NCBI RefSeq assembly: GCF_027594145.1
Contig: NZ_JAQFFK010000005.1
Location: 1 to 64,000, forward strand
Reading direction: 5' to 3'
DNA from: Methanococcoides alaskense
GTDB taxonomy: Archaea > Halobacteriota > Methanosarcinia > Methanosarcinales > Methanosarcinaceae
Length of the DNA: 64,000 nt
Below the pieces are notes generated by a model. That model did not search any database and had not been told where the DNA came from. It saw only the letters and a program-made list of their open reading frames with translations. The position numbers and the translations under genes are program-made. Positions 34,423-41,119 of this stretch are shown here, one piece after another. Each line of letters starts with the position of its first letter. The first letter of the stretch is position 1.

Positions 34423-34648
34423 TAATTATTGATAAATCACTTTTTTCAATTGCACTCCCCATCCTTCTAACCTCTCCTTCACATGAACATTCAATGTAAA
34501 CGGTCTATCACACATAGCATTCTGTTCTTGCTCCAGTAGGTCTAAGCCTTAATGCAAAGCTTTCAACTTTCAAAAACTTCACGATAGTGAATAGCTATAT
34601 AAGATACGACAAACTATAAGTCATTGTGAAGTGTCCGAAGGTATTATC

Positions 34649-34978
34649 ATGAAAATGGAGACTCCTTGTCAGACAATAGTATGGGATGTCCTTCCTGCGA
34701 TACGTGCAGCGCTTGCGGTTGAGCTTGTGAATAATGGTATTGCTCAAAAGGAAGTTGCAAGGCTATTTGGTATGGCGCCTTCCGCTGTTTCTCAGTACCT
34801 GACCAAAAAAAGAGGTTATCGTATCGAATTCGATGATGATATACAAGAGGAGATATCCCGTCTGGCTGTTGAGATACAGGAAGGCAAGATCGAGAACGTT
34901 TCTGCAAAGATATGTGATATATGCAGAAATCTGAGGACCGGGGAAGATGCCTGTCCTGTGGGACCTACTGAATTATAA
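34649..34978 (+). CDS. helix-turn-helix regulator with C-terminal Cys motif (COG2522 type)
   Basis: About 109 residues. The HTH is ELVNNGIAQKEVARLFGMAP followed by SAVSQYLTKKRGYR. A C-terminal motif ICDICRNLRTGEDACPVG has three cysteines plus one upstream, suited to bind an iron-sulfur cluster or zinc. A TATA box (CTATATAAG) lies near 34592. It is upstream of the IscS/IscU genes in the same direction, so an Fe-S or sulfur-responsive role is plausible. GTG at 34631 is an alternative start. Confidence 0.75.
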   Translation: MKMETPCQTIVWDVLPAIRAALAVELVNNGIAQKEVARLFGMAPSAVSQYLTKKRGYRIEFDDDIQEEISRLAVEIQEGKIENVSAKICDICRNLRTGEDACPVGPTEL

Positions 34979-35006: not shown

Positions 35007-35111
35007 TCCTACTGTTTTGGTCTTTCCAGAATGGGTCCGACCTTTGGTGGTATGTTGGAGTCCGGTGTAAAAGCTGCAAAGATCGCTGAAGCTATTGTGA
35101 AATCCGTATAA
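35007..35111 (+). pseudogene. 3' remnant of a Thi4-type thiazole synthase gene
   Basis: A frame without start reads FGLSRMGPTFGGMLESGVKA and continues to AEAIVKSV and TAA. RMGPTFG-M-x-SG-KAA is the conserved C-terminus of archaeal Thi4/ribose-1,5-bisphosphate-derived thiazole synthases. Only about 35 codons remain, so the gene was deleted except for its tail. Confidence 0.7.
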
Positions 35112-35299
35112 TATTTGTTAATACAGGTAGTTTATCTGCCTGTTCTTCTTTTGATGGCAGATAGTTAACGATTTATACCGTTGCCGATATAACTTTGTAT
35201 ATATCACCGATATCTGCCCTAAATTGCCTTTATCAATACATTTATTTAGGCAGGTCAGTTAATATCTTATTCCATTTAATTTAAGGAGTGTATTGCCAG

Positions 35300-36469
35300 A
35301 TGTTCAATGAGACAACCTATCTTGATAACGCTGCAAGTACAAGGCTTGATGAAGCAGTACTTGAAGCGATGAAACCGTATTTCTTTGATGCCTATGCAGT
35401 TGCTACGTCTGAATTCGGTTATTCCATGGGTATTGATGCCAAGGAAGGGCTTGAAAGGTCCCGTAAGGTCATTGCATCAAGACTTGGTGCGCAAGCTGGC
35501 GAGATCGTGTTCACTTCAGGAAGCACCGAATCGAGCAACATGGCAATAAAAGGAGTGCTTTCAGCTCTGAAAGGGAAGAAGGACGACCATCTGATCGTAT
35601 CCCGTCTGGAAGATTTCCCTGTGCTGAATACCGCAAAGAAACTTGATAAGCAGGGCTACAAGGTAGACTTCATAAATGTCGATGGGGAAGGTATCCTCGA
35701 CCTCGATATGTTCAGCGATGCCATCACTTCGCAAACAGCACTGGTGTCCATTCAGCAGGCAAATCAGGAGATCGGCACTTTGCAGGACCTTAAAGCTATC
35801 TCTGATATCTGTCAGGATAAGGATGTCCTGTTGCATACTGATGCCACTCATAGTTTTACGAGGATTCCTCTGGATGTTAGCAAGCTTCCTGTGGACCTTG
35901 TAACATTGTCAGCCCATACGATCCATGGCCCCAGAGGTATCGGCGCACTGTATATACGTGAAGGAACTCCGATAGACAAATGGATGGATGGGGGATTCCA
36001 GGAATCCGATAGGCGTGCCGGTGTAGAGAACATTCCTGCTGCGGTGGGATTTTCAAAGGCTGTGGAACTTGTGACCCCTGAGGAGAATGAACGCCTTGCA
36101 GCGATGAGGGACCGTGTTATCGAAAGGGCAATGGCTGATATTCCTCATGTGACCCTTAATGGAAGTGCTACTAGCAGGTTGCCACAGAATGCCAATATGA
36201 CTTTCCATTATGTGGAGGGTGAATCCATTACATTGCATCTCGATATGCTGGGCTTTGCAGTGAGCACAGGTTCTGCATGTTTTAGTCGTTCTCTTGAAGC
36301 AAGCCATGTGATACTCGGTATCGGTGGCGATCATGAGAGGGCACATGGGTCACTGCGTTTCAGTTTCGGACGCTTTAATACCATTGAGGATTCGGATGCT
36401 ATTATCGATGCATTGAAAGATGTTGTTACGAATCTGCGGGCTATCAGTCCTCTGACAGAAGATAATTGA
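35300..36469 (+). CDS. IscS/NifS-like protein lacking the PLP lysine
   Basis: About 389 residues of the class V aminotransferase fold: TYLDNAAST, FTSGSTESSN, HTDATHS and the catalytic-Cys loop STGSACFSRSLEASHV are all present. The PLP Schiff-base site, normally SxHK, reads LSAHTIHGPRGIG with Thr at about 207. The PLP-stacking His (EHKAVL in E. coli IscS) is Asp in LEDFPVL. The protein therefore probably cannot act as a normal desulfurase. A. fulgidus IscS is also known to lack this lysine. AAGGAG at 35283 supports the ATG at 35300. The gene lies 33 bases before iscU. Confidence 0.9.
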   Translation: MFNETTYLDNAASTRLDEAVLEAMKPYFFDAYAVATSEFGYSMGIDAKEGLERSRKVIASRLGAQAGEIVFTSGSTESSNMAIKGVLSALKGKKDDHLIVSRLEDFPVLNTAKKLDKQGYKVDFINVDGEGILDLDMFSDAITSQTALVSIQQANQEIGTLQDLKAISDICQDKDVLLHTDATHSFTRIPLDVSKLPVDLVTLSAHTIHGPRGIGALYIREGTPIDKWMDGGFQESDRRAGVENIPAAVGFSKAVELVTPEENERLAAMRDRVIERAMADIPHVTLNGSATSRLPQNANMTFHYVEGESITLHLDMLGFAVSTGSACFSRSLEASHVILGIGGDHERAHGSLRFSFGRFNTIEDSDAIIDALKDVVTNLRAISPLTEDN

Positions 36470-36502
36470 ACTTATTGCGAGATAAATAAAAGAGGTGTTT
36501 CT

Positions 36503-37138
36503 ATGACTTTCCCATACACAAAAGAGGTACTTGAGCATTTCAGAAATCCACAGAATGTTGGAAAGATGGAGGACCCTGATGGAAAGGGTCTTGAAGGCAG
36601 TCCTGCGTGTGGTGATATGGTTGCCGTTTATCTGAAAGTTGATCCTGATACTCTGGTTATCGAGGATATCTCTTTCGAGTCCTATGGCTGTGCATCCAAT
36701 ATCGCAACAGCATCTATGATCACTGAGATGGCAAAGGGCAAGACGCTTGAAGAAGCCAAGACGATCACGTGGAAGGAAGCAGCTCATGCTCTTGGTGGAC
36801 TTCCACCTGTCAAGGCGCATTGTTCCGTGCTTGCGGTCGAAGGGCTTCGGTCTGCTATTCGTGATTATGAAGAGAAGCATGGCATGGTCGTGGAGAAAGA
36901 GGCCACTACGGTAGAGATTGTCAGTAAGCGTTTGAAGCATGTGATGAATCCGATGGCAGGTCTTGATATCATCAGGACCGAACTTGTGCTAAAGGTAATG
37001 GTCGAGGAAGGAACTGTTCGTATAGTGCTTGATATACCTTCGACACATCAGTTTGCAGCTGCCATAAAGGAAGATATTGTCGATAAGCTGGAATCATTGT
37101 GGGATGTTGAGAGTGTCACGGTTGATTACATCTCCTGA
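36503..37138 (+). CDS. iscU: IscU-type scaffold fused to a DUF59/MIP18-like domain
   Basis: 211 residues. Residues 1-130 are IscU, with cluster ligands Cys36 (PACGD), Cys63 (YGCAS) and Cys107 (AHCSV), and Asp38. Residues 140-211 (KHVMNPMAGLDIIRTELVLK to VESVTVDYIS) resemble the DUF59 Fe-S carrier domain. It would assemble [2Fe-2S] or [4Fe-4S] clusters with the adjacent IscS. AGAGGTG precedes the ATG. The canonical LPPVK chaperone-binding motif is kept as GLPPVKAHC. Confidence 0.88.
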   Translation: MTFPYTKEVLEHFRNPQNVGKMEDPDGKGLEGSPACGDMVAVYLKVDPDTLVIEDISFESYGCASNIATASMITEMAKGKTLEEAKTITWKEAAHALGGLPPVKAHCSVLAVEGLRSAIRDYEEKHGMVVEKEATTVEIVSKRLKHVMNPMAGLDIIRTELVLKVMVEEGTVRIVLDIPSTHQFAAAIKEDIVDKLESLWDVESVTVDYIS

Positions 37139-37188: not shown

Positions 37189-37476
37189 ATGGAAATTCGT
37201 TCGATCGCTCCCTGTACAAGCAAGCCTTCTATATTTCATGTGGAGGCACAGCTTGAAAATGAGATAGATATTCCAAAGGCATGTGAAGCTTTATCCGTTG
37301 AGGAAGGCGTGACCATAAAGTTCCTCAGGTGCTCTGAAGAGCTTGGGGCTATCCGGTTCACTTCAGGTGCTATGATGGTGCTTATCTATGAAAGTGGCAA
37401 GATCACTGTAAGGCATGCTCCGGATGACGGTACTGCCAGAGAATTGCTCGAAAGGGTTGCTGAGCTGGTGGAGTGA
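37189..37476 (+). CDS. small conserved protein of the Fe-S cluster locus
   Basis: 95 residues, compact alpha/beta, with two Cys (PCTSKP and FLRCSEELG). LVE-type helices and ITVRHAPDDGTARELLERVA suggest a TATA-binding-like or ferredoxin-like fold. No family is recognised. It follows iscU by 50 bases and may take part in cluster assembly; this rests on position only. Confidence 0.6.
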   Translation: MEIRSIAPCTSKPSIFHVEAQLENEIDIPKACEALSVEEGVTIKFLRCSEELGAIRFTSGAMMVLIYESGKITVRHAPDDGTARELLERVAELVE

Positions 37477-37735
37477 ATTTGATGGGCTAAAGGGGCTGTC
37501 AATATTTTATGCTTAAAATATGGTCTTTCTTTTTTTATTTACCGTTTTATATGTCCCTTATGTGGAAAGGAATTCCAGTGGCTATTTAAACTTCCTGCTG
37601 ATATTCGACCGGCAATGATAAACTATATATAATTTTCACCGGTATGTTCCTTACCATTAGAGGTTATGCTATCAGGCAAAGCCTTAAGGATCTGGCCGAT
37701 TCGATGTGTTATTTCATAAATTAAGAGGTCTTCAT
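37477..37735 (+). promoter_or_regulatory. fmd operon promoter region
   Basis: A TATA box (AACTATATATAATT) lies at about 37621-37634, preceded by a C-rich BRE-like stretch. A long leader of about 75-80 bases reaches the ATG of fmdE, with AAGAGGTC as ribosome-binding site. No clear molybdate-type operator is visible. Confidence 0.55.
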
Positions 37736-38326
37736 ATGGACGACATGGATACTATTATCAACAGGATAAAAGAGCAAGATCCAGAACTATTTTTACAGAT
37801 CGAGAAGATAATTCCTTTCCACGGGTACTTGAGCTCGGGAGCAATGATAGGATTACAGATGCTCACGATGTCGAAGAGATTACTTGATGTTAAGGAAGGG
37901 GAACGCATCTATGTTACAGCGGAGACATCCAACTGTGTTCCAGATCCATTCCAGATACTCGAGGGAGCTACCACCGGGAACAAGGGAATGAAGGTCAAGG
38001 ACTACGGCAAGATGGCTGTTACCGTGAACAAACGTGGTGCACCGGGCGAGACCAGGATGCCTGCTGTCAGGATATATCTTGACGCAGAAAAGACTGCGGC
38101 TTACCCGAGATTGCACGCATGGTTCATGAACCTTGAAAAAGTGCGTCATGAAGAGATCCTGCCGATCTTACTCGAGGCAGGCGAGAACATTTATTCTTAC
38201 ACTTTTACAGAGATCGAAGTTCCGGTCAAGAAAAGCAAGCAAGTAAGGCTGTGCGAGAAATGTGGAGAGAGCTTCATTCATTATGAAGGCGAAGCACTTT
38301 GTGAAGCATGCAGGCATGAGCAGTAA
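37736..38326 (+). CDS. fmdE: formylmethanofuran dehydrogenase subunit E (FmdE-domain protein)
   Basis: About 196 residues. FHGYLSSGAMIGLQML and TAETSNCVPDPFQILEGATT match the FmdE domain, with His and Cys that bind zinc or redox metal. The C-terminus has a zinc ribbon (CEKCGESF and CEACRHEQ). In Methanosarcina barkeri fmdE begins the fmdEFACDB operon, and the same order is found here. Its role is accessory. It precedes fmdF by 16 bases. Confidence 0.9.
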   Translation: MDDMDTIINRIKEQDPELFLQIEKIIPFHGYLSSGAMIGLQMLTMSKRLLDVKEGERIYVTAETSNCVPDPFQILEGATTGNKGMKVKDYGKMAVTVNKRGAPGETRMPAVRIYLDAEKTAAYPRLHAWFMNLEKVRHEEILPILLEAGENIYSYTFTEIEVPVKKSKQVRLCEKCGESFIHYEGEALCEACRHEQ

Positions 38327-38342
38327 TTACGGAGTAGATGAG

Positions 38343-39365
38343 ATGAACGAAATATTAGTTCAGACAAAAGATAACAAGCAAGTGGTGTATTTACCAGAAA
38401 AGTGCATTGGTTGCGGGACCTGTACAATGGTCTGTCCTAAGGGCACATTGATCATAGGTTCAGTAGGACCTGTTGCCAGGGGACTCATAAATAAGGAGTA
38501 CCTGGATATTGGAGATAACTGTATCACATGTGGAATGTGTACTAAGATCTGTCCAACAGGCGCCCTTGAGATGAGAGAAGATGGAAAACCTGTATGCGAT
38601 GAGAACTTCCTGTGCAGCTCGCTCGCACCAACAACGGTGAACGATAATTGTGTACACTGTGGTGTATGTGAGCAGATCTGTCCGCAGGGTGCTATCGAGA
38701 CCAAGCAGTGGCTCGCAAACGATGGCAGTGCACGCATAGATGGTGAGACCATCATCGATCAGGAAACCTGTGTACACTGTGGATGGTGTAGCGAGGTATG
38801 TCCAACTAATGCTATCACTGTGCAGAAACCTTTCGAGGGTACATGGGAACGAGCAGAGGATGTCTGTCAGGCATGCCGTACCTGTGTGGATGTATGTCCA
38901 TGCAATGCACTGTTCAATCCGGAATGGGCTCCAGGAGAAAGAGTTGACAAGGTCGCTCAGCGTCCTGATGCATGTATCTACTGTGGTGCATGTGCTGTTT
39001 CCTGTCCTGTCAATGCTATCGATGTCCAGAAGACAGCGATCGTTCCTGACATGAACAAGAAAGCTTTATTTGAGAAGAAACTTCTCAACAAGCCATCAGC
39101 AACTCCTGCATTGACCTCTGTACTGGTTACAGATGAAGATGCATGTCTTGGCTGTGGTAACTGTGTCATTATATGTCCTGTCAATGCAAACTCCTCGAAG
39201 GAACTAGCAGCAGGTTCACTAAATGAGCTTGATGAGAAAGCACTCCTTGAGGTAAGGAACGGTACTGTCAAGGTGATCGATCAGGAAGTATGTGGCTCAT
39301 GTGGTGCATGTGCTCTTATTTGCCCTGTTTCTGCGATCTGGCTTGAGAAGAGGGAGGTTGAATAA
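38343..39365 (+). CDS. fmdF: formylmethanofuran dehydrogenase polyferredoxin subunit F
   Basis: About 340 residues with eight [4Fe-4S] motifs, among them CIGCGTCTMVCP, CITCGMCTKICP, CVHCGVCEQICP, CVHCGWCSEVCP, CQACRTCVDVCP, CIYCGACAVSCP, CLGCGNCVIICP and CGSCGACALICP. It carries electrons between the catalytic subunits and external donors. ATG at 38343 follows GGAG and fits the spacing after fmdE. It overlaps fmdA by one base. Confidence 0.95.
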   Translation: MNEILVQTKDNKQVVYLPEKCIGCGTCTMVCPKGTLIIGSVGPVARGLINKEYLDIGDNCITCGMCTKICPTGALEMREDGKPVCDENFLCSSLAPTTVNDNCVHCGVCEQICPQGAIETKQWLANDGSARIDGETIIDQETCVHCGWCSEVCPTNAITVQKPFEGTWERAEDVCQACRTCVDVCPCNALFNPEWAPGERVDKVAQRPDACIYCGACAVSCPVNAIDVQKTAIVPDMNKKALFEKKLLNKPSATPALTSVLVTDEDACLGCGNCVIICPVNANSSKELAAGSLNELDEKALLEVRNGTVKVIDQEVCGSCGACALICPVSAIWLEKREVE

Positions 39366-41119
39366 TGGCTGGGACTATTGTAATTAAGAACGGATATGTT
39401 TATGATCCGCTCAATGAAGTGAACGGTGAACAGCAGGACATCTTCATCAAGGACGGCGTGGTAGTTTCCGAACTTTCCGCAGCTGACATGAAGGATGCTA
39501 AGATAATTGATGCAACAGGCAAGACAGTAATGCCTGGTGGTGTCGATTCTCACACACACATTGCTGGTGCTAAGGTCAATACCGGTAGGATGATGCGTCC
39601 TGAAGATAGTTACAAGACAACAAGGACAAAGACCGCTATCACCCACTCAGGTTCAGGAGAGACCGTACCATCCGTCTACATGGAAGGTTACGAATATTCC
39701 AAGCTAGGATACACCACTGCTTTTGAAGCAGCTGTTCCTCCAATGGAAGCACGTCACACACACGAAGAGATGCGTTCCATTCCAATGCTCGATATGGGTG
39801 GCTACCTTGTTCTCGGTAACAACTGGTTCATGATGCGCTACCTGAAGGAAGGCGACATGGACAAGGCAGCAGCATATGTTGCATGGATGATGAAAACCCA
39901 CAAGACATATGGTATCAAATGTGTCAATCCTGGTGGAGTCGAGAACTGGGGCTGGGGTGAGAACGTTTCTTCCCTTGATGAGCAAAATATACACTTCGAG
40001 ATATCCTCCAGGGAGATCATCGATGGGCTGACCGAAGTAAACGAAATGCTCGGTATGCCAATGTCAATGCACCTTCACGCAAACAACCTTGGTCATCCGG
40101 GAAACTACAAGACAACAAAGGACTCTCTTGGTATTTCCAGCAAAACAAAGGCAAAGCAGAACATGAGTGTTAACTGGGCTGAGACAAAGATCGATGCAAG
40201 CAGAGATCAGTCAGTGTACCTCACACACATGATGTTCAATGCATTTGCCGGCACATCCTGGCGTGATTTCGAGTCTGGTGTCAAGCCTCTTGCAGATTAT
40301 ATCAACAACGCTGACCATGTTGTCATTGACAGTGGTTGCGTACCATTCGGTGAAGCAACATGTATGACCGGTGATGGACCTTCCATCCACGATCTCTCAG
40401 TGCTTACTGGTGGCAAATGGTCTAACACCGATGTTGAGCTTGAATGTGGTTCAGGTGTCTGTCCATTTACATATCTAAAGAGCAACCCTGTTCACAGTAC
40501 TCAGTGGGCAATGGGGCTTGAGTGCCTGCTCCTCATCGACGATCCATGGAAAACCATCATGACAACCGACAGTCCAAATGGCGGACCGTTCACCAAGTAT
40601 CCACTTGTTATGAGCTGGCTCATGTCCGAGAAGTTCAGGGAACAGACATTCAGTGAATGTCACAAATGGGCTAACGACAGAAGTACACTCGGTGGCGTTG
40701 ACAGGGAAATGTCCCTTTATGACCTTGCGATCCTTACCCGTGCTAACACGGCAAAGACCATTGGTATGGCACACAGGAAGGGTAGCTTCGGTATCGGTGC
40801 AGATGGTGATGTTACAATTTACGACATCGACCCAACAAAGATCGACACCAGGGAATATTCTGACCTGATCAACAAGTTCAGCACTGCTGAATACACTATC
40901 AAGGGCGGAGAGGTTGTCTGCCACGATGGTGAGATCACTATGATCCCTGATAAGAGGACCTATTACACCGACGCGAGCGTCCCTGATGCTAACGAGAAAG
41001 AAATGCTTAAGGATGTTCAGGAATGGTTCAGATACTATTCACACGGTTTCAACCACTATCCAACACCTGAGAAATACCTTGTAAACCCAACAGCGATCAA
41101 GGCAAACATGGAGCAGTGA
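39365..41119 (+). CDS. fmdA: formylmethanofuran dehydrogenase subunit A
   Basis: 584 residues, amidohydrolase fold with a dinuclear metal site: HTHIAGAKVN, a KCVNPGG lysine region, MHLHANNLGHPGN and TDSPNGGPF. It hydrolyses or forms formyl-methanofuran from formate reached through an internal tunnel from the FmdB site, as shown structurally for the tungsten enzyme. GGGAGGTTGAATAATG is the ribosome-binding site. The length is normal. Confidence 0.96.
   Translation: MAGTIVIKNGYVYDPLNEVNGEQQDIFIKDGVVVSELSAADMKDAKIIDATGKTVMPGGVDSHTHIAGAKVNTGRMMRPEDSYKTTRTKTAITHSGSGETVPSVYMEGYEYSKLGYTTAFEAAVPPMEARHTHEEMRSIPMLDMGGYLVLGNNWFMMRYLKEGDMDKAAAYVAWMMKTHKTYGIKCVNPGGVENWGWGENVSSLDEQNIHFEISSREIIDGLTEVNEMLGMPMSMHLHANNLGHPGNYKTTKDSLGISSKTKAKQNMSVNWAETKIDASRDQSVYLTHMMFNAFAGTSWRDFESGVKPLADYINNADHVVIDSGCVPFGEATCMTGDGPSIHDLSVLTGGKWSNTDVELECGSGVCPFTYLKSNPVHSTQWAMGLECLLLIDDPWKTIMTTDSPNGGPFTKYPLVMSWLMSEKFREQTFSECHKWANDRSTLGGVDREMSLYDLAILTRANTAKTIGMAHRKGSFGIGADGDVTIYDIDPTKIDTREYSDLINKFSTAEYTIKGGEVVCHDGEITMIPDKRTYYTDASVPDANEKEMLKDVQEWFRYYSHGFNHYPTPEKYLVNPTAIKANMEQ

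Follow-up and report, generated by a model that had tools for sequence, protein, structure and literature searches.

The stretch of DNA analysed here, 64,000 nucleotides from Methanococcoides alaskense (contig NZ_JAQFFK010000005.1, positions 1 to 64,000; 'the window'), encodes an IscS homologue followed after a gap of 33 bases by its partner iscU, and the question addressed is that of sulfur supply to Fe-S clusters without cysteine in anaerobic archaea. Residue positions in IscS were set by aligning Archaeoglobus fulgidus IscS and other solved desulfurases and mapping onto Escherichia coli IscS. The IscS belongs to a group of homologues without the pyridoxal 5'-phosphate (PLP)-binding lysine, termed T-type here, and the features of the pair are as follows.

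35300..36469, + strand: IscS homologue, Lys-less, T-type, ATG to stop, 389 aa (PF00266, E 3.3e-69); marks of the type are an EDF motif at D105, Q156, H184, T207, C327-F328 and R353
35612..35614, + strand: D105 codon GAT, replacing the PLP-stacking His (E. coli H104), from the alignment
35849..35851, + strand: H184 codon, replacing E. coli Gln183, a PLP ring contact
35918..35920, + strand: T207 codon ACG, replacing the E. coli Schiff-base Lys206, from the alignment
36278..36280, + strand: Cys327 codon TGT in the mobile loop (E. coli Cys328)
36503..37138, + strand: IscU with a C-terminal DUF59 (PF01883) fusion, 211 aa
36920..37123, + strand: the DUF59/PF01883 domain, Cys-free, with a conserved P-x-x-H-Q-F-A whose H182 falls close to where other DUF59 domains have their Cys

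Profile and Foldseek searches give the window IscS the fold and overall homology of the group I IscS/NifS desulfurases. Its best solved relatives are IscS structures, the AlphaFold2 (AF2) model reaching TM scores of 0.95 with human NFS1 and 0.94 with E. coli IscS, and it scores 420.7 bits against TIGR03402, under the cut-off of 530.75. The loop STGSACFS, which holds C327, is intact, as an earlier sequence-only reading had noted, and is probably mobile since AF2 confidence is low at 326-331. The partner matches NifU_N over residues 5-126 (E 7.5e-43) and carries the IscU scaffold set of C36, D38, C63, H106, C107 and LPPVK, followed by PF01883 at residues 140-207 (E 4.8e-11; 43.2 bits vs a curated cut-off of 23.5).

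The pocket that holds PLP in E. coli IscS is altered in the window protein at no fewer than five contact positions (H104 to D105, N155 to Q156, Q183 to H184, K206 to T207 and T243 to V242), whilst C328 is kept as C327. The sequence-only reading had named the Thr and Asp substitutions, both of which are upheld by the alignment, but had understated the extent of the change. It had also proposed a survey of these residues in the Methanosarcinales, and residue counts over 72 non-redundant T-type, 24 A. fulgidus-type and 33 Lys-containing sequences showed that the pocket changes are fixed well beyond that order. Position 207, the Schiff-base Lys of group I desulfurases, is T, L or S in 72/72 T-type sequences (T 68, L 3, S 1), and the PLP contacts equivalent to His104, Gln183 and Thr243 are D, H and V/L/I/P/A respectively, each in 72/72; among Lys-containing relatives these four positions read H, Q, K and T in 33/33. 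E. coli Thr243 reaches across from the opposite subunit to hold the phosphate of PLP. Because none of these groups (Schiff-base Lys, PLP-stacking His, ring-contacting Gln, phosphate-binding Thr) remains, T-type IscS would not be expected to use PLP and, judged from its sequence, is very likely no PLP desulfurase. A weak but ordinary desulfurase, holding PLP non-covalently with some other group acting as base, could draw on the retained Asp181 (which contacts the pyridine N), H206 and Arg353, but would have to work with all four of those groups missing and seems to us highly unlikely.

Eleven residues are invariant among the 72 T-type sequences (D105, F106, N155, Q156, D181, H184, H209, R239, C327, F328 and R353), including C327-F328 of the loop, and the invariance of D105, H184, H209 and R353 suggests that the predicted pocket still does something. 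It might have been rebuilt as a new active or metal site made of D105, H184, H206, H209 and Cys327 and binding, for example, Fe(II) or an anionic sulfur species. The conservation of D105, Q156, D181, H184, H209 and R353 in 72/72 goes beyond what a passive scaffold needs, but H209 is also present in 8/33 Lys-containing relatives and H206 is common to them and the T-type, and we consider such a rebuilt site, taken by itself, quite improbable.

Searching 84,980 species genomes yielded 61 loci, about 50 of which carry T-type IscS at 61-99% identity. The hosts are Methanosarcinaceae, Methanothrix, and metagenome-assembled genomes (MAGs) labelled Chloroflexi/Anaerolineae, Deltaproteobacteria, WOR-3, Thermodesulfovibrionales, Actinobacteria and Clostridia. 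Within Methanococcoides the ratio of nonsynonymous to synonymous substitution rates (dN/dS) of iscS is ~0.05-0.08, i.e. strong purifying selection. As the substitutions are fixed across the clade and dN/dS is low, the residue losses are an old and selected feature, and sequencing error or a pseudogene is ruled out on the same grounds. At the locus of Methanosarcina sp. ERenArc_MAG2 the assembly breaks up the T-type iscS as well as its iscU, probably through frameshifts.

A. fulgidus IscS, which the sequence-only reading had cited as precedent, does lack the Lys, but it is of a different Lys-less type and its IscU is unfused, so that its mechanism is not simply transferable. Judged from 24 sequences, among them the two A. 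fulgidus copies in genome G255, the A. fulgidus type has H105, A184, N206, D207 and V/L at 353 where the T-type has D105, H184, H206, T207 and R353, and the window protein, with D105, H184, T207 and R353, is thereby ruled out as a member. The solved A. fulgidus IscS-IscU pair (PDB 4EB5, 4EB7, 4HVK) resembles the window pair in being Lys-less, in its IscU partner, its Cys loop and its TusA/DsrE neighbours, and differs in K206 to D, Gln183 to A, H205 to N, the loss of Arg353, the retention of His104 and of the phosphate Thr (Thr/Ser at the E. coli Thr243 position in 24/24 of the type), and an IscU without DUF59. In a tree built by a quick method with the pocket columns left out, the T-type and A. 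fulgidus type each formed a single branch (support 100 and 99), and a joint clade of the two was compatible with the data (approximately unbiased test, p-AU 0.50), such that a single loss of the Lys and two losses are both possible. An Endomicrobium homologue (locus L067, 6001-7164) has Val at the Lys position, keeps His105 and has no TusA or DsrE nearby; it is possibly a third Lys-less form, or a case of decay in an insect-gut symbiont.

Both Lys-less types share a gene neighbourhood. TusA and DsrE2 are small Cys-persulfide carriers, and the T-type cassette has the order tusA-dsrE2-iscS-iscU/DUF59 (tusA, PF01206; dsrE2, PF13686). An earlier count had used flanks of 1.1-1.5 kb that were unequal between groups, and neighbours were recounted with larger flanks, a locus counting as full-flank when it extended 2.5 kb or more upstream and 3 kb or more downstream. 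TusA adjoins 23/26 full-flank T-type loci and DsrE 21/26, vs 0/35 Lys-containing loci in each case; the three T-type loci without adjacent TusA are all from Methanococcoides. Among A. fulgidus-type loci TusA is found in 4/6 with full flanks, TusA and/or DsrE in 7/8 of all, and TusA in 19/24 of a larger set with shorter flanks, and in many of them the open reading frame lists show TusA and IscS separated by a divergent DsrE-like protein. The association of TusA with both Lys-less types vs the Lys-containing type gave p = 5e-14 (Fisher exact test), a value that carries no correction for shared descent. The active-site Cys of TusA (CPxP) is present in all cassette matches except one, and the DsrE2 Cys of CxMTMEIMG in most. 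Examples are M. acetivorans C2A (HIT - tusA - dsrE2 - iscS1 - iscU1/DUF59) and A. fulgidus itself (TusA-DsrE-IscS-IscU). A selenium-related role through a YedF-like TusA gained no support, matches to the YedF models lying far under the cut-off. We found no report linking TusA/DsrE to IscU in methanogens in the open-access literature, which is weak evidence of absence.

The cassette might instead traffic sulfur for something other than general Fe-S clusters, such as tRNA thiolation or a further thio-cofactor, IscU-DUF59 then being the acceptor. TusA and DsrE proteins elsewhere do serve tRNA thiolation and sulfur oxidation (PMC3397948; PMC4175335), and some A. fulgidus-type loci have a ThiI-like gene ahead of tusA (L125, L128 and L129, which with L124 have tusA directly upstream of iscS). 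Against this, IscU, the constant fused partner, keeps its three cluster Cys and Asp, in a setting that is invariant across relatives, and we rate such trafficking as rather unlikely.

The surface of IscS provides evidence separate from gene order, yet also subject to shared descent. Shi and colleagues (PMC2854127) identified Trp45 of E. coli IscS as a hot spot for mutations that affect TusA binding, and the corresponding position is hydrophobic in 72/72 T-type and 22/24 A. fulgidus-type but only 2/33 Lys-containing sequences, whilst an acidic residue occupies position 49 in 72/72 T-type and 17/33 Lys-containing sequences. T-type IscS thus has an E. coli-like predicted TusA-docking patch, sharing with the E. 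coli IscS-TusA complex (PDB 3LVJ) the hydrophobic 45 and acidic 49 and 52. The IscU-contact residues E306, G307, E308, S309 and E346 are likewise invariant in T-type IscS.

Fusion to DUF59 marks the IscU of this clade, occurring in 68/68 of those encoded next to T-type IscS and in none of those encoded next to Lys-containing (0/21) or A. fulgidus-type IscS (0/23). The sequence-only reading had recognized the additional domain, for which the PF01883 score is over the cut-off, and had likened it to an Fe-S carrier; that role is doubtful, there being no Cys in the domain. The conserved Cys of the family (as in TM0487, 1UWD) is missing and 28/29 fused domains have no Cys at all, which makes a docking or target-selection role likelier than cluster carriage; in a weak alignment an invariant H182 falls close to the TM0487 Cys. 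The AF2 model of IscU-DUF59 (predicted local distance difference test score, pLDDT, 89) is confident and matches A. fulgidus IscU (4eb5_C) at 0.8 Å over the IscU part, and how the two domains sit relative to each other is only loosely defined at a predicted TM score (pTM) of 0.64.

Sulfide had been suggested by the sequence-only reading as the direct sulfur source. Because both Lys-less types adjoin TusA/DsrE and the Lys-containing type does not, delivered sulfane sulfur appears the better candidate. The window pair would then serve as IscS and IscU in an Fe-S assembly system no longer drawing sulfur from cysteine. Sulfane sulfur, from thiosulfate, polysulfide or another desulfurase, would load DsrE2/TusA; TusA would dock on IscS and pass the sulfur to Cys327; and the Cys327 loop would swing to IscU, delivering persulfide for a cluster on C36/C63/C107, with the Cys-free DUF59 most likely docking acceptor proteins or transfer factors. 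This would reverse the IscS-to-TusA transfer of E. coli, since T-type IscS is predicted to be unable to use PLP to form persulfide from cysteine. We favour such a persulfide relay, fed by TusA/DsrE onto Cys327 and IscU without cysteine as the source, because it explains why TusA/DsrE lie beside Lys-less IscS and none lie beside Lys-containing IscS, and put its chances at about even. A broader form, in which both Lys-less types are TusA/DsrE-fed persulfide acceptors with reversed flow and the T-type pocket is in addition a new active or metal site, we judge unlikely.

The main competitor to the relay is the other idea of the sequence-only reading, still a live one, that IscS is a structural partner. 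IscS would here dock IscU and lend Cys327 as a cluster ligand, with free sulfide as the sulfur source, and TusA/DsrE2 would serve another pathway or release sulfide locally. A Cys-ligand model of this kind is already in the literature for A. fulgidus IscS and has been raised for M. acetivorans IscS1 too (PMC7585200), the Cys loop and IscU-docking residues are retained, and methanogens live in sulfide, which SMS uses (PMC12192291). It leaves the TusA/DsrE2 neighbourhood (23/26 vs 0/35) and the TusA-docking residue unexplained, and we hold it to be a credible but minority explanation.

Several points weigh against the persulfide relay. The direction of sulfur flow is read from gene content; M. 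acetivorans IscS1 expressed alone went into inclusion bodies (PMC7585200); position 49 is acidic in just 5/24 A. fulgidus-type sequences; and a possible single origin of the Lys-less types means that the TusA association may represent few independent events. Furthermore, tusA and dsrE2 are not adjacent to iscS-iscU in the window or elsewhere in the genus, and no TusA or DsrE2 was found in the window's MAG, which is 76.6% complete. The Methanococcoides cassette is split, with tusA-dsrE2 elsewhere on the chromosome. In favour of the relay, the pair does occur, away from iscS, in each of 10 near-complete other Methanococcoides genomes, in one example ~185 kb from it, and no Lys-containing group-I IscS was found in Methanococcoides. 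The genus has a SufS/CsdA-type desulfurase with an intact Lys, plus SufB, and cysteine-derived sulfane sulfur could therefore still enter through this enzyme and TusA.

Loss of the Lys in A. fulgidus IscS and M. acetivorans IscS1 has been published (PMC7585200). The M. acetivorans IscS1/IscU1 pair (MA0808/MA0807) belongs to the same clade as the window pair, with T for Lys, STGSACFS and an IscU of 24.2 kDa; at its locus the IscU, 220 aa long, is fused to DUF59 and, unlike in the window, tusA-dsrE2 lie directly upstream. That paper describes the neighbouring genes as four of unknown function, and its main text is silent on the DUF59 fusion. Active MisSU and IscSU of the MIS/ISC type (e.g. M. 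acetivorans IscS2U2) share the fold and operon pair, but have the Lys, PLP activity, an unfused IscU and no TusA/DsrE neighbours (0/35). The dsrE-tusA clusters of sulfur oxidisers (PMC4175335) share the TusA CPxP and DsrE2-family carriers but are tied to Hdr-like sulfur oxidation, whereas the T-type cassette is tied to IscS-IscU. We found no earlier report in the open-access literature of the TusA/DsrE2 linkage, of the DUF59 fusion as a mark of the clade, of the altered pocket or of the occurrence in bacteria. As background, sulfide is used by methanogens, M. acetivorans can do without SufBC (PMC10500019), and A. fulgidus IscS has no desulfurase activity although its structure is solved. The link between Lys-less IscS and TusA/DsrE offers one explanation both for a cysteine-free sulfur supply in archaea and for the inactivity of A. 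fulgidus IscS, and is testable in the genetically tractable M. acetivorans; if true, many archaeal and bacterial 'cysteine desulfurase' annotations are wrong.

Upstream of the pair lies one further gene of interest.

34631..34978, + strand: helix-turn-helix (HTH) regulator with a C-terminal CxxC...C motif (weak HTH profile matches)

This gene is conserved upstream in three Methanococcoides loci, and its homologues lie beside iscSU of each of the three types in archaea, A. fulgidus among them; they are not specific to Lys-less loci, flanking 12/35 Lys-containing ones, and the protein is a probable candidate for an archaeal isc regulator. Between it and iscS, window positions 35009-35112 hold the leftover C-terminus of a Thi4-like thiazole synthase (GLSRMGPTFGGMLESGVKAAKIAEAIVKSV). 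The relatives L012-L014 have a full Thi4-like gene there (266 aa in L014), ~0.95 kb of this region being deleted in the window or its assembly. After iscU, positions 37189-37476 encode a 95-aa protein with a sub-threshold match to a TATA-binding protein profile (E 0.0022), which is kept in the same three Methanococcoides loci. Directly following, at 37706-41119, are genes for an FmdE-like protein, a polyferredoxin and an amidohydrolase-family protein (probably FwdA), i.e. a 4Fe-4S-rich formylmethanofuran dehydrogenase operon beside the cluster-assembly genes.
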